A stretch of 64,000 bases of DNA from Deltaproteobacteria bacterium (lineage in GTDB: Bacteria; Myxococcota_A; Polyangia; Polyangiales; Polyangiaceae): the NCBI GenBank assembly GCA_016218915.1, contig JACRCQ010000076.1:36618-100617 (forward strand), in the 5' to 3' direction. Below the pieces are notes generated by a model. The model saw only the letters and a list, made by a program, of their open reading frames with translations. It had not been told where the DNA came from and ran no database searches. Numbering within the stretch: the stretch's first letter is position 1; every line of letters begins with the position of its first letter. The position numbers were made by a program, and so were the translations under genes. Shown here in pieces: positions 7,419 to 64,000 of the stretch.

Positions 7419-8075
7419 GTGAACCCAGGAGCAGAGCAGGCGGCAGTCAAGCCCGTGGTCCGGACCGAAGTGGATCCGGAGCTGCTGGCTTTGCCTGCTC
7501 CGCCGCGCAGGGATCGAACCCTGGCAGTGGTGCTGATGCTGGTGACCGCCGTGGCTTCGATCTCGATGTGCTGGGCCCTGCGTGGCGAGGTTTCCTACGC
7601 TTTTTCCCGGGCCGTCCCTGCGGAGCTCGGCGACTTGACCACCCTGCAGCTCGGCTCCGTGGCGCCAGGCAGCTATGTCGAGGCGCGCGGCCTGCTCGGG
7701 ACCAACGGCGCGATCCGATATTCGCGTCCGCTCGAGGGTGACTCGTTCCGCCTGCAGCCTGTAGCCGGCAACGACAAGCTTTGGGTCGAAATCCGCGTTC
7801 CCGAAGGCATGGAAGGGCCCCGGTTCATCCCGCCGATCTCCTTTGCAGGACGCCTGTCTCCCATGAAGTCCGCTGGATTGCGTCATGCCGGGCTCGCACG
7901 CTCCGTGCACGCGCAGACCTCGGTGGTCATCCCGCAAGACGCGTGGATCCTCGTGGACGGAGCTTCGCCGCGCGCATCGCGCTGGGCTGTGGCGCTCTTC
8001 GCGCTGTTCGCGTTCTTCGCCGCCTGGAACGTGGTCAACACGATCCGCATCGTGCGCAGGGTCAGCGATCGCTGA
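7419..8075 (+). CDS. Hypothetical membrane protein with two TM segments
   Basis: Hydrophobic segments near both ends flanking a soluble domain; GTG start at 7419 inferred. Confidence 0.65.
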   Translation: MNPGAEQAAVKPVVRTEVDPELLALPAPPRRDRTLAVVLMLVTAVASISMCWALRGEVSYAFSRAVPAELGDLTTLQLGSVAPGSYVEARGLLGTNGAIRYSRPLEGDSFRLQPVAGNDKLWVEIRVPEGMEGPRFIPPISFAGRLSPMKSAGLRHAGLARSVHAQTSVVIPQDAWILVDGASPRASRWAVALFALFAFFAAWNVVNTIRIVRRVSDR

Positions 8076-8119
8076 GCGCGGGTGCGGCCGCAGGATCGCG
8101 GCTCGATGCGGGGGGGCAG

Positions 8120-9391
8120 CTAGATGGGGATGCCAGGGGCGGGGAAGTCTTTGCACATGTCGGCGACTTCGCGCGCGGTGCGCGTGATCAACGCCTCGTC
8201 GTCGTGCTTCTGGATGACCTGATCCATCCACCCCGCGATGCGCTTCATCTCGGCTGTGCCCATGCCGCGGGAGGTGACCGAAGGCGTGCCCAGGCGCAGG
8301 CCCGACGGATCGAAGGGCTTGCGCGGATCGAAAGGCACCGTGTTGTAGTTGGCCACGATCCCGGCGCGATCGAGCGCTTTGGCGGCGATCTTGCCCGGGA
8401 TGTTCTTGTTGGTGAGGTCGATCAGGATCAGGTGGTTGTCGGTTCCACCGGTCACCAGGCTATATCCCAATTCGGACAGACCTGCGGCGAGCGCCTTGGC
8501 GTTCTCCACGATCTTGTGGGCGTAGGTCTTGAACGCCGGCTGCGCTGCTTCGTGCGCAGCCACTGCAATCGCCGCCGTGGTGTGGTTGTGCGGCCCGCCC
8601 TGCAGCCCCGGGAACACCGCCTTGTCGATCGCCTTGGCGTGCTCCTTCTTGCACAGGATCATGCCGCCGCGCGGTCCGCGCAGCGTCTTGTGCGTGGTCG
8701 TGGTGATCACGTCCGCGATCCCCACCGGCGACGGGTGAGCACCGCCTGCGACCAGCCCTGCGATGTGCGCGATGTCAGCTGCCAGGATCGCTCCGACCTC
8801 GTCGGCGATCGAGCGGAACGCCTGGAAGTCGATGATGCGCGAGTAGGCGGTGGCGCCGCAGAAGATCAGCTTGGGACGATGCTCCTTGGCGAGCTCGCGG
8901 GCTTGATCGTAGTCGATCAGGTGGTTGTCCTTCCGGACGTTGTAGGCGACGCTCTTGAAGAACATGCCGGTGATGGAAACGTTCCATCCGTGGGTGAGAT
9001 GGCCGCCGGAGGGCAGCGCCAGACCCATGATGGTTTCGCCCGGCTTCGCGAACGCCAGGTAGACCGCCAGGTTGGCCGGGCTGCCCGAGTAGGGCTGCAC
9101 GTTGGCGTGCTCGGCGCCGAAGAGCTTCGCCATGCGCGCTGCCGCGATCTCCTCGACCTGGTCGACCTGCTGCTGGCCTTCGTAGTAGCGCTTGCGCGGG
9201 TAGCCTTCGGAGTACTTGTTGGTGAACACGGAGCCGGCCGCCTCGAGCACAGCGCGCGATGCGTAGTTCTCGCTGGGGATGAGCCGGACGGTGTCGTGCT
9301 CGTAGCGCGCTTCCTTTGCCACGAGCTCGGCGATTTCGGGGTCGGTTTCTGCGAGCGAAGGCTCGCGCCATTGAATGATCGGCTGAGTCAT
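8120..9391 (-). CDS. glyA: Serine hydroxymethyltransferase
   Basis: LIPSENYASRAVLEAAGSVFTNKYSEGYPRKRYYEGQQQVDQVE...; TTTTHKTLRGPRGGMILC. Confidence 0.97.
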   Translation of the reverse strand: MTQPIIQWREPSLAETDPEIAELVAKEARYEHDTVRLIPSENYASRAVLEAAGSVFTNKYSEGYPRKRYYEGQQQVDQVEEIAAARMAKLFGAEHANVQPYSGSPANLAVYLAFAKPGETIMGLALPSGGHLTHGWNVSITGMFFKSVAYNVRKDNHLIDYDQARELAKEHRPKLIFCGATAYSRIIDFQAFRSIADEVGAILAADIAHIAGLVAGGAHPSPVGIADVITTTTHKTLRGPRGGMILCKKEHAKAIDKAVFPGLQGGPHNHTTAAIAVAAHEAAQPAFKTYAHKIVENAKALAAGLSELGYSLVTGGTDNHLILIDLTNKNIPGKIAAKALDRAGIVANYNTVPFDPRKPFDPSGLRLGTPSVTSRGMGTAEMKRIAGWMDQVIQKHDDEALITRTAREVADMCKDFPAPGIPI

Positions 9392-54687: not shown

Positions 54688-56034
54688 TCAGGAGAGGTGA
54701 CCGAGTGGCCGAAGGTACCCGCTTGCTAAGCGGGCGTAGGTCAAAAGCCTACCGAGGGTTCGAATCCCTCCCTCTCCGCAATCATTCCGACCACTTAGAG
54801 CTGCTGAGGACCAATCCAGGACCAATCCGGAGGGGTTCTTGGGGGTCAACAAGCTCTCCGGTAGGGGAGGGAACACCTGCCCGAAACCATCCCGAAGCAC
54901 CTCTGCTTCGCGAATGTAGATCTCCGTGGTCGAGTACTCCTCGTGCCCAGCGCGGAACTTGATCTTCCGCATCTCGTCCCCTCGGATTGCCATCCAGGTG
55001 ATGCCGGTGGCGCGAAGGTCGTAGAAGCGCATCGGGAGGCTCGCGTCGTCGCCCTTGAACAACTCGGCCCGGGTGATCCCTGCCTTCCTCAACCAGTGCC
55101 GCAGGCCACGAGAGAGATCTCGATCGCTGGGAAGCTGGATCACAATCCCCGTCCCTCCGCTCTCCGCGTGCAGAGCGCAAAGCAACGGCATCAACTCGGG
55201 CTCGACCGTGAAGCGCCGCGTCTGCTCAGTCTTGGTGCTCTTCTCCACCTTCGCCTTGGCATCCCAGGCATGCTTGATGTTGACCGTGGCCTGGTCGATG
55301 TTGATGTCCCGGTCCATGCGGAGCACGCGAAGCTCGCCCGGTCGCGCGTAGAGGTAGACGTTGAGCGCCACGATGCGCCGCCACACCAACGGGACCTCCT
55401 CGCTCGCCACGAACTGCAAGAACTCGGCGGGGTAGAGGTACTGCTTCCCCCGCTTCCCGCCTCGGTCAGGTGGCGCAACGCCAGCACAGGGGTTGTCGGT
55501 GCGGACGCGCAAGGCACGGGTCTTCGATCCGCACGAATCTCGCATCATCTTCGACAGAACGCCCCAGTTGTTCTGGGCGGTCTTCCAGTGCAGCTCGCCA
55601 TCCTGCACCTTGGCGTCGGTCTCCTCGACCCAGGCTTCGATGTCCGCGCGTTCCACGTCCACGACCAGCTTGCCGCCCAGCGAAGGCTCGATCCACTTGC
55701 GGTACCGCCCATGATCGCCGCCCGCGCAGCCCAACCCTCGCGCCTTGCGATCCTTCACCCAACGATCGACCCAGGTGTTCAAGGTCTCGCCCGTGCTGGT
55801 GGTTGCTTCCTCCGGGCGGGTTGGCGTTTCCTTTTCACGGGCACGGCGTTTGGGGGCGCGCATGCCTTCCGCGTCCCAGAGTCTGACAGCCAGATCCGCC
55901 GCGAGCTGCGTCGCTTCATCCTTCGAGAGCCCCGGCTTGAAGTGGTACCAGGGGCGCGTGCCATCAGGCTTTCGGATCCGCGCCTTGTAGTGATCACCGT
56001 CCCACACAACGGTCCCTGTGCGCGGACGTGCCAT
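54688..56034 (-). CDS. Tyrosine recombinase (integrase); ORF end runs antisense through tRNA-Ser(GCT)
   Basis: LNVYLYARPGELRVLRMDRD (R of the catalytic set), FYDLRATGITWMAI (xLRHxxxT-like, here LRAT), HEEYSTTEIYI (Tyr box); located directly 3' of a tRNA-Ser. Confidence 0.88.
   Translation of the reverse strand: MARPRTGTVVWDGDHYKARIRKPDGTRPWYHFKPGLSKDEATQLAADLAVRLWDAEGMRAPKRRAREKETPTRPEEATTSTGETLNTWVDRWVKDRKARGLGCAGGDHGRYRKWIEPSLGGKLVVDVERADIEAWVEETDAKVQDGELHWKTAQNNWGVLSKMMRDSCGSKTRALRVRTDNPCAGVAPPDRGGKRGKQYLYPAEFLQFVASEEVPLVWRRIVALNVYLYARPGELRVLRMDRDINIDQATVNIKHAWDAKAKVEKSTKTEQTRRFTVEPELMPLLCALHAESGGTGIVIQLPSDRDLSRGLRHWLRKAGITRAELFKGDDASLPMRFYDLRATGITWMAIRGDEMRKIKFRAGHEEYSTTEIYIREAEVLRDGFGQVFPPLPESLLTPKNPSGLVLDWSSAALSGRNDCGEGGIRTLGRLLTYARLASGYLRPLGHLS
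54691..54778 (+). tRNA. tRNA-Ser (anticodon GCT)
   Basis: GGAGAGG/CCTCTCC acceptor; CCCGCTTGCTAAGCGGG anticodon arm; variable arm GTAGGTCAAAAGCCTAC; T-loop GGTTCGAATCC. Confidence 0.94.
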
Positions 56035-57177: not shown

Positions 57178-59023
57178 GAGACACCTCTTCCTCTTCCGCA
57201 GATGGTGGAGATGGTGGACATGCTGCTGGTTCATCCCAACCGTCACGCGTGGAAGCGATTGTCTCCGACAGTGTCTGCAACGAACCGAATCCATCTCCAC
57301 CATCTCCACCGTCTCCACCACTCTCTTCGTCGCTGTCGTCTGATCGCCCGGAAACGGGTTCGAGGTACCAGAGGTGACCGCCTTCGTTCGGCGGTGTTCT
57401 GCAGAGTCGGAATCCGTTGCGCACCTTTCCGCGAAATCGGCGGAGCAAGTATCCAAGGTCCTTGCTGGCGAGCGGCTTATCAGAGCGTACGCGCGTTAGA
57501 TCGATGACCGCGGTCCGAAGGGAGTGGTACTCGCCGGAACGATCATTCAACACCCTCGCGATCTCCGCTGCCTTGAGGGTGAAACGACTTCCCGACCCAT
57601 GCGACCGAAGTACTTCGCGCAGGCCCGTGAAGAACAACCCGATCGACGATTCCGCGGAATCGCCTTCGGCGAGCTTGGCGCGGGACAAGTACGGATCGGG
57701 CTGCCCTGCCCAAATCAGGGACGCACGGATGAGGTCGCTCCAGGCTTCGAAGCTGCCCCACGCCGGCATGTCGATCTTGGGCCTTCCAGCGACCACGAAC
57801 GCGCGCAACACCGTCAACGCGGCACGTACCAGTCGCGGACGATTTTCCCGTACCCATGGGACGAGAGGGCTGTGCTTGAAACCAGTACGTGCGTCCGGTT
57901 GATCGCAATCAGGTTCGAGCCGAACCAGATTGATGCGACGCACGGCATCGCCGATGAATTCCACGTTGTTGCCAGTCGCTATCCAAGTGACGAGCAGCGG
58001 CATTCGTTTCTCAGCGGAAACGCCGAGGATCCGATCGCTCCACATCGTCGAAGTCAGTGCAGCGTCCATGACCGGTCCTCCAAGCTTCGTTAGATTGTCG
58101 AGCAGGACGACTCGCACTCCGCCCAAGGCAATCGCCATGATGCGCTTGCGCATCTCCTCGCCGTCCGAGGTCTGGGGCGTCACCGGCAGTGGGCGCCCGG
58201 TAGCGATCTCACCCTGAATGGTGGCCGCGAGGCTCTTGCCGGTCCCGCGCTCCGGCGCCTCGATTAGCTGGAGCGGGGCACAACCGGCGAACGCAAATCT
58301 CGCGAACATCGTCAGCAGTCCGGCCATCCACGCTGATCGGTGTTCGGGACCGGCGAACGGAAAATTGACCACCACTTCGGCAAGCACCTCGCAAGCCGCC
58401 TCCGCATCAGCTTGCGTCGGCATTTTGGGTACCGGATCGAATCGCCCATTGGGAAGGTAGAGAAGACCTGTCGCACCGTCGTAACCAGGCACGTCAAGCA
58501 CGGACCCATCGGGTCGCATGACCGGCGATTCGACCACCCCTTCGAGCACACGGATGTCCTTCCACTCACCGTAGTCCGCCACCTGTCGCACCAGGCGGTA
58601 GGGAGGATGTGCTGCCACCCATTTGCCTGGGCCCCGCCTGTTGTTGCGCCAAGCTCTCCAGTCCGCCGCACTCGAGAGATGCATCGAGATCATGGAGTGG
58701 GGCAGGATGTCGATCGTGGGCGTTCCACGCGGCAAGACCACGCCTCCCAGCTTGGTCTGCTCGTCAAGCACTCGAACCAGGAAGCCGCCTCGCTGGAAGA
58801 TCGGCCGACCAGTCGCGACCATGGCAGCGACCGCCTCCTTCAGCACGCGCTCTTCATCGGCGTCGAGTCTGATCTCGGGCTTCGCGCCCACCGATGTCGT
58901 TGGTTGCCCGTCGGCCAAGAGTCCGTTCGCGTACGGCGTGCCGGTCATCGGGTCGTCCGGAAGCAGACCCTGACGAGCGAGTTCGTTAACGTCGGGGCGG
59001 GACGGCGGCGGCTGTGTGCTCAT
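57167..59023 (-). CDS. P-loop ATPase, probable element replicative helicase
   Basis: Walker A IEAPERGTGKSLAATI, Walker B VRVVLLDNLTKLG; adjacent to a primase. Confidence 0.7.
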   Translation of the reverse strand: MSTQPPPSRPDVNELARQGLLPDDPMTGTPYANGLLADGQPTTSVGAKPEIRLDADEERVLKEAVAAMVATGRPIFQRGGFLVRVLDEQTKLGGVVLPRGTPTIDILPHSMISMHLSSAADWRAWRNNRRGPGKWVAAHPPYRLVRQVADYGEWKDIRVLEGVVESPVMRPDGSVLDVPGYDGATGLLYLPNGRFDPVPKMPTQADAEAACEVLAEVVVNFPFAGPEHRSAWMAGLLTMFARFAFAGCAPLQLIEAPERGTGKSLAATIQGEIATGRPLPVTPQTSDGEEMRKRIMAIALGGVRVVLLDNLTKLGGPVMDAALTSTMWSDRILGVSAEKRMPLLVTWIATGNNVEFIGDAVRRINLVRLEPDCDQPDARTGFKHSPLVPWVRENRPRLVRAALTVLRAFVVAGRPKIDMPAWGSFEAWSDLIRASLIWAGQPDPYLSRAKLAEGDSAESSIGLFFTGLREVLRSHGSGSRFTLKAAEIARVLNDRSGEYHSLRTAVIDLTRVRSDKPLASKDLGYLLRRFRGKVRNGFRLCRTPPNEGGHLWYLEPVSGRSDDSDEESGGDGGDGGDGFGSLQTLSETIASTRDGWDEPAACPPSPPSAEEEEVSRDI

Positions 59024-60111
59024 CCGAAGATCCCTCCCCGAATGAGCAGGCACCGCGAACCGAGGGTCAGCGCGATGTGCGCCGCGTAGCGTTCACCGGC
59101 GGGATCTGCGTCAGTCCAGATCGCAACTCGGGTGCCGCTCGGAATGCGCGCCGCAACTTCTGGACACCAGGCGCCAGAGTAGATCCCGAGGACGGCGTGG
59201 GAGGGAGGACAGCGGAGCGGCGTGCGCACGGCCCAGGTCAAGAAGTCGAACTCGCCCTCGGCTATGACGACGCGAGGTTCGCTCCTCGCCCACTCAGGCC
59301 AACGCCCGGCGCGAAGTACTTCAACACCCATGGCGTCGGCCATCACGAGACCGCCGGTCTTGTGGCCCGCTGGCGGCAAGCGCTTTGGGCTGTCTCCATC
59401 AACAACGCGGCAGGCTCGGACGCCGACGACGTTGCCGCACGCGTTGTAGACAGGCAGGACTAGAAGGTGGCCGGTCTCGACCCAACTCTGTCCGCGAAAG
59501 CGCGCCCACCTCGGAAGCTGGAGGCACGATCGTGGGATCCCGAAGGCCAAACCGCGTACGTCTACTTCGCGGGGTTCGAGGCCGCGGCATCGGACGTGTC
59601 GAGCGACCGTCTCGACCTGATCGGTGCACACGCACGAACCGATGAACTTCAAGAGTCCGTCACGGTCCAGATACTCCCTCTCGGACTCTGGTCGCGGCGG
59701 CGCCGATGCTGGGATCGGGCATGAGGCCGCATCGGTCGCAGGGAAGGGGCCCTTCGCGTCAAGGGCTTCGACCAAGTCCCAGCGTCCCAGCGTCTCGGCT
59801 TCATGCACCAGGACGTTTCTGAACCCTGACCCTGTCACCTCGAACCCGCGCACCTGGGCGAACAGCGCGTGGACGTCCCGGGTCTCGCCGCATCCGAAGC
59901 AATGCACTCGGATCGAGCCTTGCGGCCCGATTCCGATCCAGCAGGATGGTGTACGCTCCTCCACCCAAGGACACCGGACGACGGCTTGTCGGGATTCCTT
60001 GCGGAAGCGGAGCCCGAGCAGCTCGCAGACAGCGAACGGACCGATGCGAGTCCACTCGCGGGTGAGGTCGTCCCGGATGCCACGAACGTCGATCACTGCA
60101 CGACCCCACAT
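59020..60111 (-). CDS. CHC2 zinc-finger / Toprim primase
   Basis: VRCPWVEERTPSC...RVHCFGCGE (CHC2-like); VVIAEGEFDFLTW...VAIWTDADPAGERYA (Toprim). Confidence 0.85.
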   Translation of the reverse strand: MWGRAVIDVRGIRDDLTREWTRIGPFAVCELLGLRFRKESRQAVVRCPWVEERTPSCWIGIGPQGSIRVHCFGCGETRDVHALFAQVRGFEVTGSGFRNVLVHEAETLGRWDLVEALDAKGPFPATDAASCPIPASAPPRPESEREYLDRDGLLKFIGSCVCTDQVETVARHVRCRGLEPREVDVRGLAFGIPRSCLQLPRWARFRGQSWVETGHLLVLPVYNACGNVVGVRACRVVDGDSPKRLPPAGHKTGGLVMADAMGVEVLRAGRWPEWARSEPRVVIAEGEFDFLTWAVRTPLRCPPSHAVLGIYSGAWCPEVAARIPSGTRVAIWTDADPAGERYAAHIALTLGSRCLLIRGGIFG

Positions 60112-61689: not shown

Positions 61690-61938
61690 ATGCGTTCATC
61701 GGAGATTGAGCAGTGGATGGAAGACCGTGGTGGAGTGGCAACCACCCAAGAGGTCGCCGAGTACCTCGAGATCGATCGTCGCTACGCCACGTCAAAGGCG
61801 GAAGAGATAGGGGTCCGACGAGTTGGGTCGTCGTACGCCTGGCTTCTGCCGGACGTGCTCGCTCTGGATGAAGTGAGCAACGAGGACGACGAAGACGAGG
61901 ACGACGAAGACGAGGACGACGAGGAAAGAGAAGAGTGA
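61690..61938 (+). CDS. Small HTH-like protein with acidic (E/D) repeat tail
   Basis: MRSSEIEQWMEDRGGVATTQEVAEYLEIDRRYATSKAEEIGVRRVGSSYAWLLPDVLALDE...NEDDEDEDDEDEDDEEREE. Confidence 0.55.
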   Translation: MRSSEIEQWMEDRGGVATTQEVAEYLEIDRRYATSKAEEIGVRRVGSSYAWLLPDVLALDEVSNEDDEDEDDEDEDDEEREE

Positions 61939-62769: not shown

Positions 62770-63801
62770 ATGCAACACTATGAGCCAATTCTAGCCGCTA
62801 TGCTTAGACCGATTCAGATCCCTCCCCCAGCGAATTGGCAGGACTTTGAGACCCTTTGCCATGACCTTTGGCGCGATGTCTGGCAGGACGATGAAGCGCA
62901 GAAAAATGGGCGCAGCGGGCAGCCTCAATGCGGCGTCGATATCTTCGGTCGTCCGGGTCTCGGTGCCGAGTACGCAGGCGTCCAGTGCAAGGGCAAGGAC
63001 CGGCTCACCGCTAAGCGGCTTACCTCAGCGGAGATGAATGCTGAGGTCAAGAAGGCAAAGCGCTTCCAGCCCCGCCTAAATGCGCTCGCGTTCGCAACCA
63101 CTGCACCCCGAGACGAAGGAGTTCAGGAGGCGGCTCGAAAGATCACAGCGCAGCTATCGAAGCGCACTCGATTCACTCTGAGCGTCTGGTCGTGGGACGA
63201 CATATCCGATGAGCTGTGCAAGCGACCGCATGTCCTTCAGCGACACTATCCGCAGTTCTTCCAACGGGTCGGCCTGTTGCGTATTCTAGCCCTGAACGTT
63301 GTTGAATTCGACTACATGACCCATAGCTGCTCAGAAGAAGATCTCTTCGATTTCTTCGGATCTCCCGCCGTTCGTGCTCTCTTCTCTGAGGAACTTCGCC
63401 TCGACATGCAGGCCATCGTCGCGGAACTGGTGTTGAACGCCTCATCGCATGGGGGCGCTCGCTGGTGCTCGCTGAGAATTGAGAATGACCGAGTCACCTA
63501 CAGAGATGACGGCGGAGCCTTTAACCCCTTGAACAAGGCACGGCGGAAGAAGGGCGCGAAGATGGGAACGGGGGCAGGGATCCCCTTCATCCGGTACGTG
63601 CTCCAAGCCTATGCGGGCAAGATTCGCGCGGGCTACCAACGGGACGGCGATAGAAACGTGATCGAGTTTGCATTTCAGGAGCGACTGGCTGCTCTCACGC
63701 TCGCCAAGAATTGCAAGATCTGGCTGCGAGGAAGTACGTGTTTAGCGGGTAGGTCCATGTCATCCATGTCCCACGTTGTCCTTCGAAAGTTGAGCGCGTG
63801 A
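62770..63801 (+). CDS. PD-(D/E)xK-like nuclease domain fused to GHKL (HATPase) domain; putative defence protein
   Basis: N-terminus GVDIFGRPGLGAEYAGVQCKGKDRL (D...QxK, Mrr-like); C-terminus MQAIVAELVLNASSHGG (N-box), YRDDGGAFNP (G1), GTGAGIPFIRYVLQAYAGKI (G2). Confidence 0.7.
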   Translation: MQHYEPILAAMLRPIQIPPPANWQDFETLCHDLWRDVWQDDEAQKNGRSGQPQCGVDIFGRPGLGAEYAGVQCKGKDRLTAKRLTSAEMNAEVKKAKRFQPRLNALAFATTAPRDEGVQEAARKITAQLSKRTRFTLSVWSWDDISDELCKRPHVLQRHYPQFFQRVGLLRILALNVVEFDYMTHSCSEEDLFDFFGSPAVRALFSEELRLDMQAIVAELVLNASSHGGARWCSLRIENDRVTYRDDGGAFNPLNKARRKKGAKMGTGAGIPFIRYVLQAYAGKIRAGYQRDGDRNVIEFAFQERLAALTLAKNCKIWLRGSTCLAGRSMSSMSHVVLRKLSA

Positions 63802-63848
63802 TCTGATTCTGCTGTCCATGGGAGCAGTGTTGTGAGATCCGGGAATGA

Positions 63849-64000
63849 ATGACGCCCGGCGAGTTGGAGCAGGAAAACGAGCGACTCCGCAAGGATGTCG
63901 AGGAACTGCGTCGCGAGAATGCCGGGCTTCGGGAACAACTTCACAAGGTGCTCAAAGAAGTCGAGGAGTGGAAACGAGGGCATCGCGAGCGTGGCAAGCG
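63849..64000 (+). mobile_element. N-terminus of an IS66-like transposase (truncated by the window edge)
   Basis: MTPGELEQENERLRKDVEELRRENAGLREQLHKVLKEVEEWKRGHRERGKR: coiled-coil start typical of IS66-type transposases. Confidence 0.55.

Follow-up and report, generated by a model that had tools for sequence, protein, structure and literature searches.

A truncated Mrr-like nuclease and GHKL ATPase gene in a tRNA-Ser island, probably a broken copy from a rare family of candidate anti-phage proteins

The gene at 62770-63801 of the window, by which we mean the whole stretch of 64,000 nucleotides analysed here, joins an Mrr-like nuclease to a GHKL ATPase in a single chain. With moderate confidence, we regard it as a broken copy from a small, horizontally moving family in which nuclease and ATPase are followed by a third domain, and whose intact proteins act as accessory effectors against phages or other foreign DNA. 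The window copy is probably inactive and no working system, whereas the intact fusion is probably a rare candidate anti-phage system of bacteria. The gene and the sequence downstream of it comprise the following features.

62770-63801, plus strand: open reading frame of the Mrr-GHKL fusion, 343 codons and 343 aa as read in the window
62812-63264, plus strand: Mrr-like PD-(D/E)xK nuclease domain, residues ~15-165 (Pfam, 32-sequence alignment, Foldseek, PADLOC)
62938-62991, plus strand: predicted active-site stretch, from D57 (62938-62940) to Q72-C73-K74 (62983-62991), invariant in 32 of 32 sequences
63322-63678, plus strand: GHKL (Bergerat-fold) ATPase of the SpoIIAB/RsbW type, residues ~185-303 (Pfam, leave-one-out profile, Foldseek)
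63424-63438, plus strand: N-box E219-L-V-L-N223, its E and N invariant in five of five fusion proteins
63505-63516, plus strand: G1 box DDGG, residues 246-249, like the N-box conserved in the fusion family
63565-63582, plus strand: G2-like GTGAGI, well formed in the window protein only
63679-63744, plus strand: remnant of the linker or beginning of the lost third domain, aligning with the L056 region before and at its third domain; low-confidence in the model
63745-63827, plus strand: end of a repeated element that interrupts the gene, recurring on contig C46 and in related genomes
63849-64000, plus strand: start of a coiled-coil open reading frame, a 50-aa stretch cut by the contig end

Alignment to the intact relatives at loci L056, L060, L036 and L037 makes the ATG at 62800 (M11) the probable functional start, which suggests that translation begins there and not at the first codon of the reading frame.

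In Pfam, residues 28-121 match Mrr_cat_2 (E=4.7e-4), the N-terminus also matches Mrr_cat (0.051), and residues 200-293 match HATPase_c (E=2.1e-3) and HATPase_c_2 (2.7e-3). Because all of these matches lie below the curated cut-offs, stronger tests of both domains were needed. For the nuclease, the L036 relative reaches 1.3e-5 with Mrr_cat_2, above the curated cut-off, and the N-terminal ~150 residues of the window protein have matches in 60 plasmid records, the best of them 30-43% identical. An alignment of this domain across 32 sequences shows G47, G50, Q51, Q53, G55, D57, Q72, C73, K74 and W142 in every one, with E27 and R48 almost invariant; the D...QxK motif of Mrr-like nucleases (D57, Q72, K74) is thus kept throughout. 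The glutamine to which the earlier note had drawn attention, as a replacement of the usual glutamate, is indeed present, but being invariant in all 32 sequences it is the norm of the family and no oddity. Among PDB sequences, neither the protein nor profiles found more than chance or weak matches. In the AlphaFold2 model (mean pLDDT 80), the N-terminal domain matches EcoO109I and the Avs4 nuclease region at Foldseek probabilities of 0.97-0.99. As modelled, residues ~15-165 have a nuclease fold, and their catalytic activity is predicted.

For the ATPase, a GHKL profile that was trained on the four relatives and left the window out gave the window protein 34.1 bits, the top score among 2000 shuffles being 6.3 bits. 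The model matches SpoIIAB/RsbW structures in Foldseek at a probability of 1.00, so that on structural modelling the GHKL part has a Bergerat fold. Fold searches against the PDB could have contradicted the earlier note, which had read one ORF with an Mrr-like nuclease and a GHKL ATPase from the letters; they recovered both folds, in agreement with profiles and model. The N-box, the DDGG of G1 and the GTGAGI of G2 that it listed are all there as well. The G2 motif is degenerate in all four distinct relatives, the window copy being the best kept of the fusion family, and ATP turnover by these proteins is therefore uncertain.

How widespread is this architecture? Searched with the N-domain alignment, IMG/VR gave 11 loci, two of which (L036 and L037) hold the fusion, and a scan of genome contigs gave 28, including L056 from Verrucomicrobiales (37% identical to the window protein over residues 11-309), L060 from Bacteroides ndongoniae and L075 from Variovorax, whose protein is identical to that of L036. 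Five fusion proteins were found in all, the window protein and four distinct intact ones (L056, L060, L036/L075 and L037). In the window's phylum (379 genomes), the fusion profile retrieved the window copy alone, plus four N-domain proteins, and a search of the same 379 genomes with the GHKL part returned mainly proteins of histidine-kinase size and no further fusion among the loci retrieved. The window protein as a single query had no match in genome or viral contigs, and neither had the L060 protein in viral contigs. In a tree of the N-domain, the window, L056 and L060 proteins form one clade (95/85) that spans three phyla amid other architectures; L036 and L037 lie outside it, and a single origin of the five fusions is not rejected (AU p 0.475). 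The fusion family is small, rare and horizontally spread.

The intact relatives are about 375-397 aa long and carry ~95 residues more after the GHKL domain, the order in all four distinct proteins being Mrr-like nuclease, GHKL domain and third alpha/beta domain. In the model of the L056 protein the third domain runs beta-alpha-beta-alpha-beta-alpha-beta, with pLDDT mostly at 72-95. Held-out profiles score the third domains of L036, L037 and L060 at 52, 55 and 17 bits, that of L056 being borderline at 8.7. The third domain has no Pfam match, STAS included, and no fold match of its own. Three features suggest that it is perhaps STAS-like: its topology, its position behind a domain of the RsbW type, and an NxS(A/G) motif that three of the four distinct relatives have at a comparable position.

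All five fusion members lie in mobile or restriction-linked loci and none of the relatives at a housekeeping locus, an outcome of the neighbourhood survey that agrees with the earlier note: the settings are an RM operon, a methyltransferase element and prophages. In L056 the fusion gene, at 8007-9161, sits inside a type I RM operon, on one strand, between an hsdM-hsdM-GHKL gene group and hsdS-hsdR, with an ATGA overlap joining its stop to the start of hsdS and an integrase upstream. The GHKL gene between the hsdM pair and the fusion gene (L056 6014-7990, plus strand) encodes a 658-aa protein with HATPase_c_3 that resembles the restriction enzymes BbrUII/HgiDII, and this restriction locus thus contains two GHKL genes. 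The L060 element carries an integrase, a primase-like gene, probable mobilisation genes and a DrmMII-like cytosine methyltransferase, and one neighbouring gene has a match to the C-terminus of TmtA. In a contractile-tail prophage (Variovorax), the L036/L075 gene has the tail-completion genes on one side and the baseplate genes on the other, and the L037 gene (7962-9155) lies in a provirus with an integrase and a cytosine methyltransferase.

Such surroundings are open to readings other than host defence by a self-contained effector. The fusion might be an accessory restriction component that helps or polices a resident RM system, as a second, methylation-guided nuclease of the type IV/Mrr-like kind whose GHKL part would couple it to modified or damaged DNA. 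E. coli Mrr is itself methylation-dependent, which counts for this reading, as do the L056 operon with its adjoining BbrUII/HgiDII-like GHKL gene and the L060 element, which holds a candidate nuclease besides its cytosine methyltransferase; paraMORC GHKL proteins have also been tied to RM operons and nucleases (PMC2292703). However, no complete RM system adjoins the gene in L036, L037 or the window within the stretch read, and a known methyl-DNA reader domain was not detected. On balance, we consider this reading unlikely.

Two of the four contexts other than the window are a prophage or provirus, and there a gene might work for the phage and not for the host. Alternatively, the fusion might be a selfish gene of the toxin-antitoxin kind, with a nuclease toxin that the GHKL domain and the third domain curb in cis, and promote maintenance of the element or exclusion between phages. 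The mobile or restriction-linked loci of all five members accord with this, a separate antitoxin gene is not obvious, and in VapKSC, too, a GHKL kinase and a STAS protein control a nuclease: by the proposed mechanism, phosphorylation of the STAS protein by the STAS-GHKL kinase frees the VapC nuclease (PMC13373217). The RM operon that surrounds the gene in L056 accords better with defence, and we judge a selfish role to be distinctly improbable.

An effector of defence would have precedents among known systems, the closest with experimental backing being VcSduA. This protein, of Shedu type I-D (paraMORC3), unites a GHKL ATPase and a DUF4263 nuclease in one protein, lies in a mobile island, and requires both ATPase and nuclease residues for its anti-phage activity (PMC12137116). 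The fusion family shares with VcSduA the combination of GHKL ATPase and PD-(D/E)xK nuclease in one chain and the location in a mobile island. Unlike in VcSduA, the nuclease precedes the GHKL domain and is Mrr-like with a D...QxK motif, and the GHKL domain is of the small SpoIIAB/RsbW type, without a clamp-like middle domain, the third alpha/beta domain being terminal. At a threshold of E<=10, neither the window protein nor any of the four relatives matches DUF4263, and HATPase_c_3, which represents the GHKL+S5 module of paraMORC and MORC proteins, has no match in the fusion proteins, whereas the L056 neighbour has one. The window domain is of the RsbW type and differs from the GHKL+S5 domain of paraMORC proteins, which is of the MutL/MORC type. 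Membership of the window protein in Shedu or paraMORC was rejected, as the required domains are missing.

A second point of comparison is offered by CapK/CapS, a STAS-GHKL kinase and a STAS protein that control immune genes (PMC13373217), and by VapKSC. Like both, the fusion family has a SpoIIAB/RsbW-type GHKL domain that may act in phage defence, perhaps together with a STAS-like partner, and would control a nuclease; it differs from VapKSC, which consists of three proteins with a PIN nuclease (VapC), by its single chain and its Mrr-like nuclease. Lamassu LmuA, Avs2/Avs4 and ZorD have an Mrr-like effector nuclease domain in common with the fusion; unlike those systems, the fusion protein has no SMC (LmuB), STAND or helicase module, its sensor being the GHKL ATPase, and among the open reading frames inspected at L056 and in the window, no LmuB SMC partner was apparent. 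The earlier note had proposed an undescribed effector. Experiments on VcSduA have already revealed an anti-phage protein that combines a GHKL ATPase with a nuclease, so the idea as such has a precedent, and to that extent the proposal falls; yet no description of the Mrr-GHKL architecture was found in the literature searched, namely open-licence papers on GHKL proteins, Mrr and phage defence.

Taken together, the domains, the conservation of the D/QxK and N-box residues, the restriction-linked and mobile contexts, the defence neighbours and the precedent of VcSduA make a defence role for the fusion family plausible. How might such a protein work? We envision a scenario whereby the GHKL part, through binding or hydrolysis of ATP, and the third domain would jointly hold the nuclease off until a cue of infection frees it, upon which the Mrr-like nuclease would cut nucleic acid. 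Partner switching by SpoIIAB/RsbW-type kinases is familiar from sigma-factor control and, spread over three proteins, from VapKSC. Conceivably, the intact L056, L060, L036 and L037 proteins are single-chain switches, in which the RsbW-type kinase phosphorylates or grips its own STAS-like domain and so frees the nuclease upon infection or DNA damage, an elaboration that we hold to be possible, if doubtful. If the intact proteins do defend, they would represent a further class of sensor, an RsbW-type GHKL domain with an alpha/beta partner domain, that controls Mrr-like effector nucleases in parallel with the STAND and TPR sensors to which this nuclease is joined elsewhere, and they would provide a compact test case for the immune reuse of ATP-driven partner switching.

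Outside the fusion, the nuclease module (PHROG 8991) is widespread on plasmids and prophages, mostly under the annotation 'hypothetical protein'. It is combined with STAND-like NTPases (L004, L006, L029), with TPR-type arrays (L005, L008, L057, L062) and with other C-termini (L064-L066, L068, L086), and it heads helical proteins of ~310 aa (L030-L033, L035, L003, L007); this distribution is what an effector nuclease with exchangeable sensors would show. Genes with the N-domain are often found near Shedu (L003, L085), Gabija-like, short Argonaute or RM-type genes (L006 and L089 for the latter), and that of L093 has an ATP-dependent endonuclease and a UvrD helicase as neighbours. In PADLOC-DB, several members match LmuA (best 3e-8), PDC-S73, Avs2 and ZorD; the window protein matches PDC-S73 alone (0.0058) and the L056 protein nothing, so that neither of the two has a strong match to a protein of a described anti-phage system there. 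Proviruses and plasmids also hold nuclease-module proteins of ~300-350 aa, in two sets with differing helical C-termini (L030, L032, L033, L035 and L092 in one; L003, L007, L031, L038 and L090 in the other). On a Hymenobacter plasmid, a 383-aa nuclease-module protein (L086 5019-6170) directly adjoins a pair of SIR2 and short Argonaute genes. Proteins of ~1310-1335 aa with the module are kept on rhizobial conjugative plasmids (L084, L085, L088, L091, L093); their genes, annotated as hypothetical, often lie behind a small helix-turn-helix gene.

What, then, became of the window copy? From 63745 onward its sequence is repeated elsewhere: the 83 bp of 63745-63827 are 89% identical to the end of contig C46 of the same genome, and the first 36-40 bp have matches of 98-100% in three genomes of the same family (G014, G149, G318). 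Residues ~326-343 of the ORF, its last ~18 codons, are therefore foreign, and pLDDT is under 50 from residue ~326 on. The window contig stops 256 bp past 63745, and contig breaks are usual at repeats. A search for the lost third domain across the rest of the window genome did not find it (best E 0.10). We conclude that an inserted element cost the window copy its third domain and left what is probably a dead or deregulated remnant. That the gene is instead a natural, functional two-domain protein with a C-terminal tail of its own is very improbable: the frame is open through 63801, both domains are complete and its G2 is the best preserved in the family, but the tail coincides with a repeat that recurs in the genome and in relatives, is of low confidence in the model, and replaces a domain present in four of four distinct relatives. 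On our preferred reading of a broken copy, the single-protein defence system that the earlier note had proposed stands in part, on the folds, the mobile island and the defence-type setting of the relatives; for the window gene itself such a function is unlikely, because it lacks the third domain of all four distinct intact relatives.

The nature of the inserted element is less clear-cut. The IS66-like transposase that had been placed next to the gene is not borne out: what precedes the contig end, at 63849-64000, is a coiled-coil stretch of 50 aa for which database searches gave no match supporting an IS66 identity. In two relatives the shared 36-40 bp are solitary, and the stretch read there holds nothing that could be recognised as a transposase. 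The sequence of 63745-63784 stands alone at an equivalent site in L118 and L119, close to a dihydroneopterin-aldolase-like gene, and it is also present at the contig ends of C46 and C57; possibly, it is the end of an element or a small mobile unit.

The gene itself resides in an island at a tRNA-Ser gene, as had been noticed earlier; the 26-bp att repeat of tRNA-Ser(GCT) confirms the association. The island's features in the window are these.

54691-54779, plus strand: tRNA-Ser(GCT), the insertion site of the island
54756-54781, plus strand: attL, 26 bp at the 3' end of the tRNA gene, repeated exactly at C50:5501-5526
54688-56034, minus strand: tyrosine integrase of the island (Pfam Phage_integrase 3.4e-7), its 3' end overlapping the tRNA gene
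59020-60111, minus strand: DnaG-type zinc-finger primase-like gene of the island (Pfam Zn_ribbon_DnaG 1.5e-4)

Since the repeat at C50:5501-5526 comes without a tRNA gene, we take it as attR, which makes C50:1-5500 probably the right part of the island. This part encodes an XRE-type regulator and an ImmA-like M78 peptidase, both of which are frequent on mobile elements. Within the putative island, contig C50 opens (C50:1-140, L108) in an 18-bp tandem repeat, cagatgcaggtgcctcaa, perhaps the reason why the assembly breaks there. A small HTH-like ORF at 61863-61935 of the window ends in a long C-terminal run of Asp and Glu, EDDEDEDDEDEDDEEREE.
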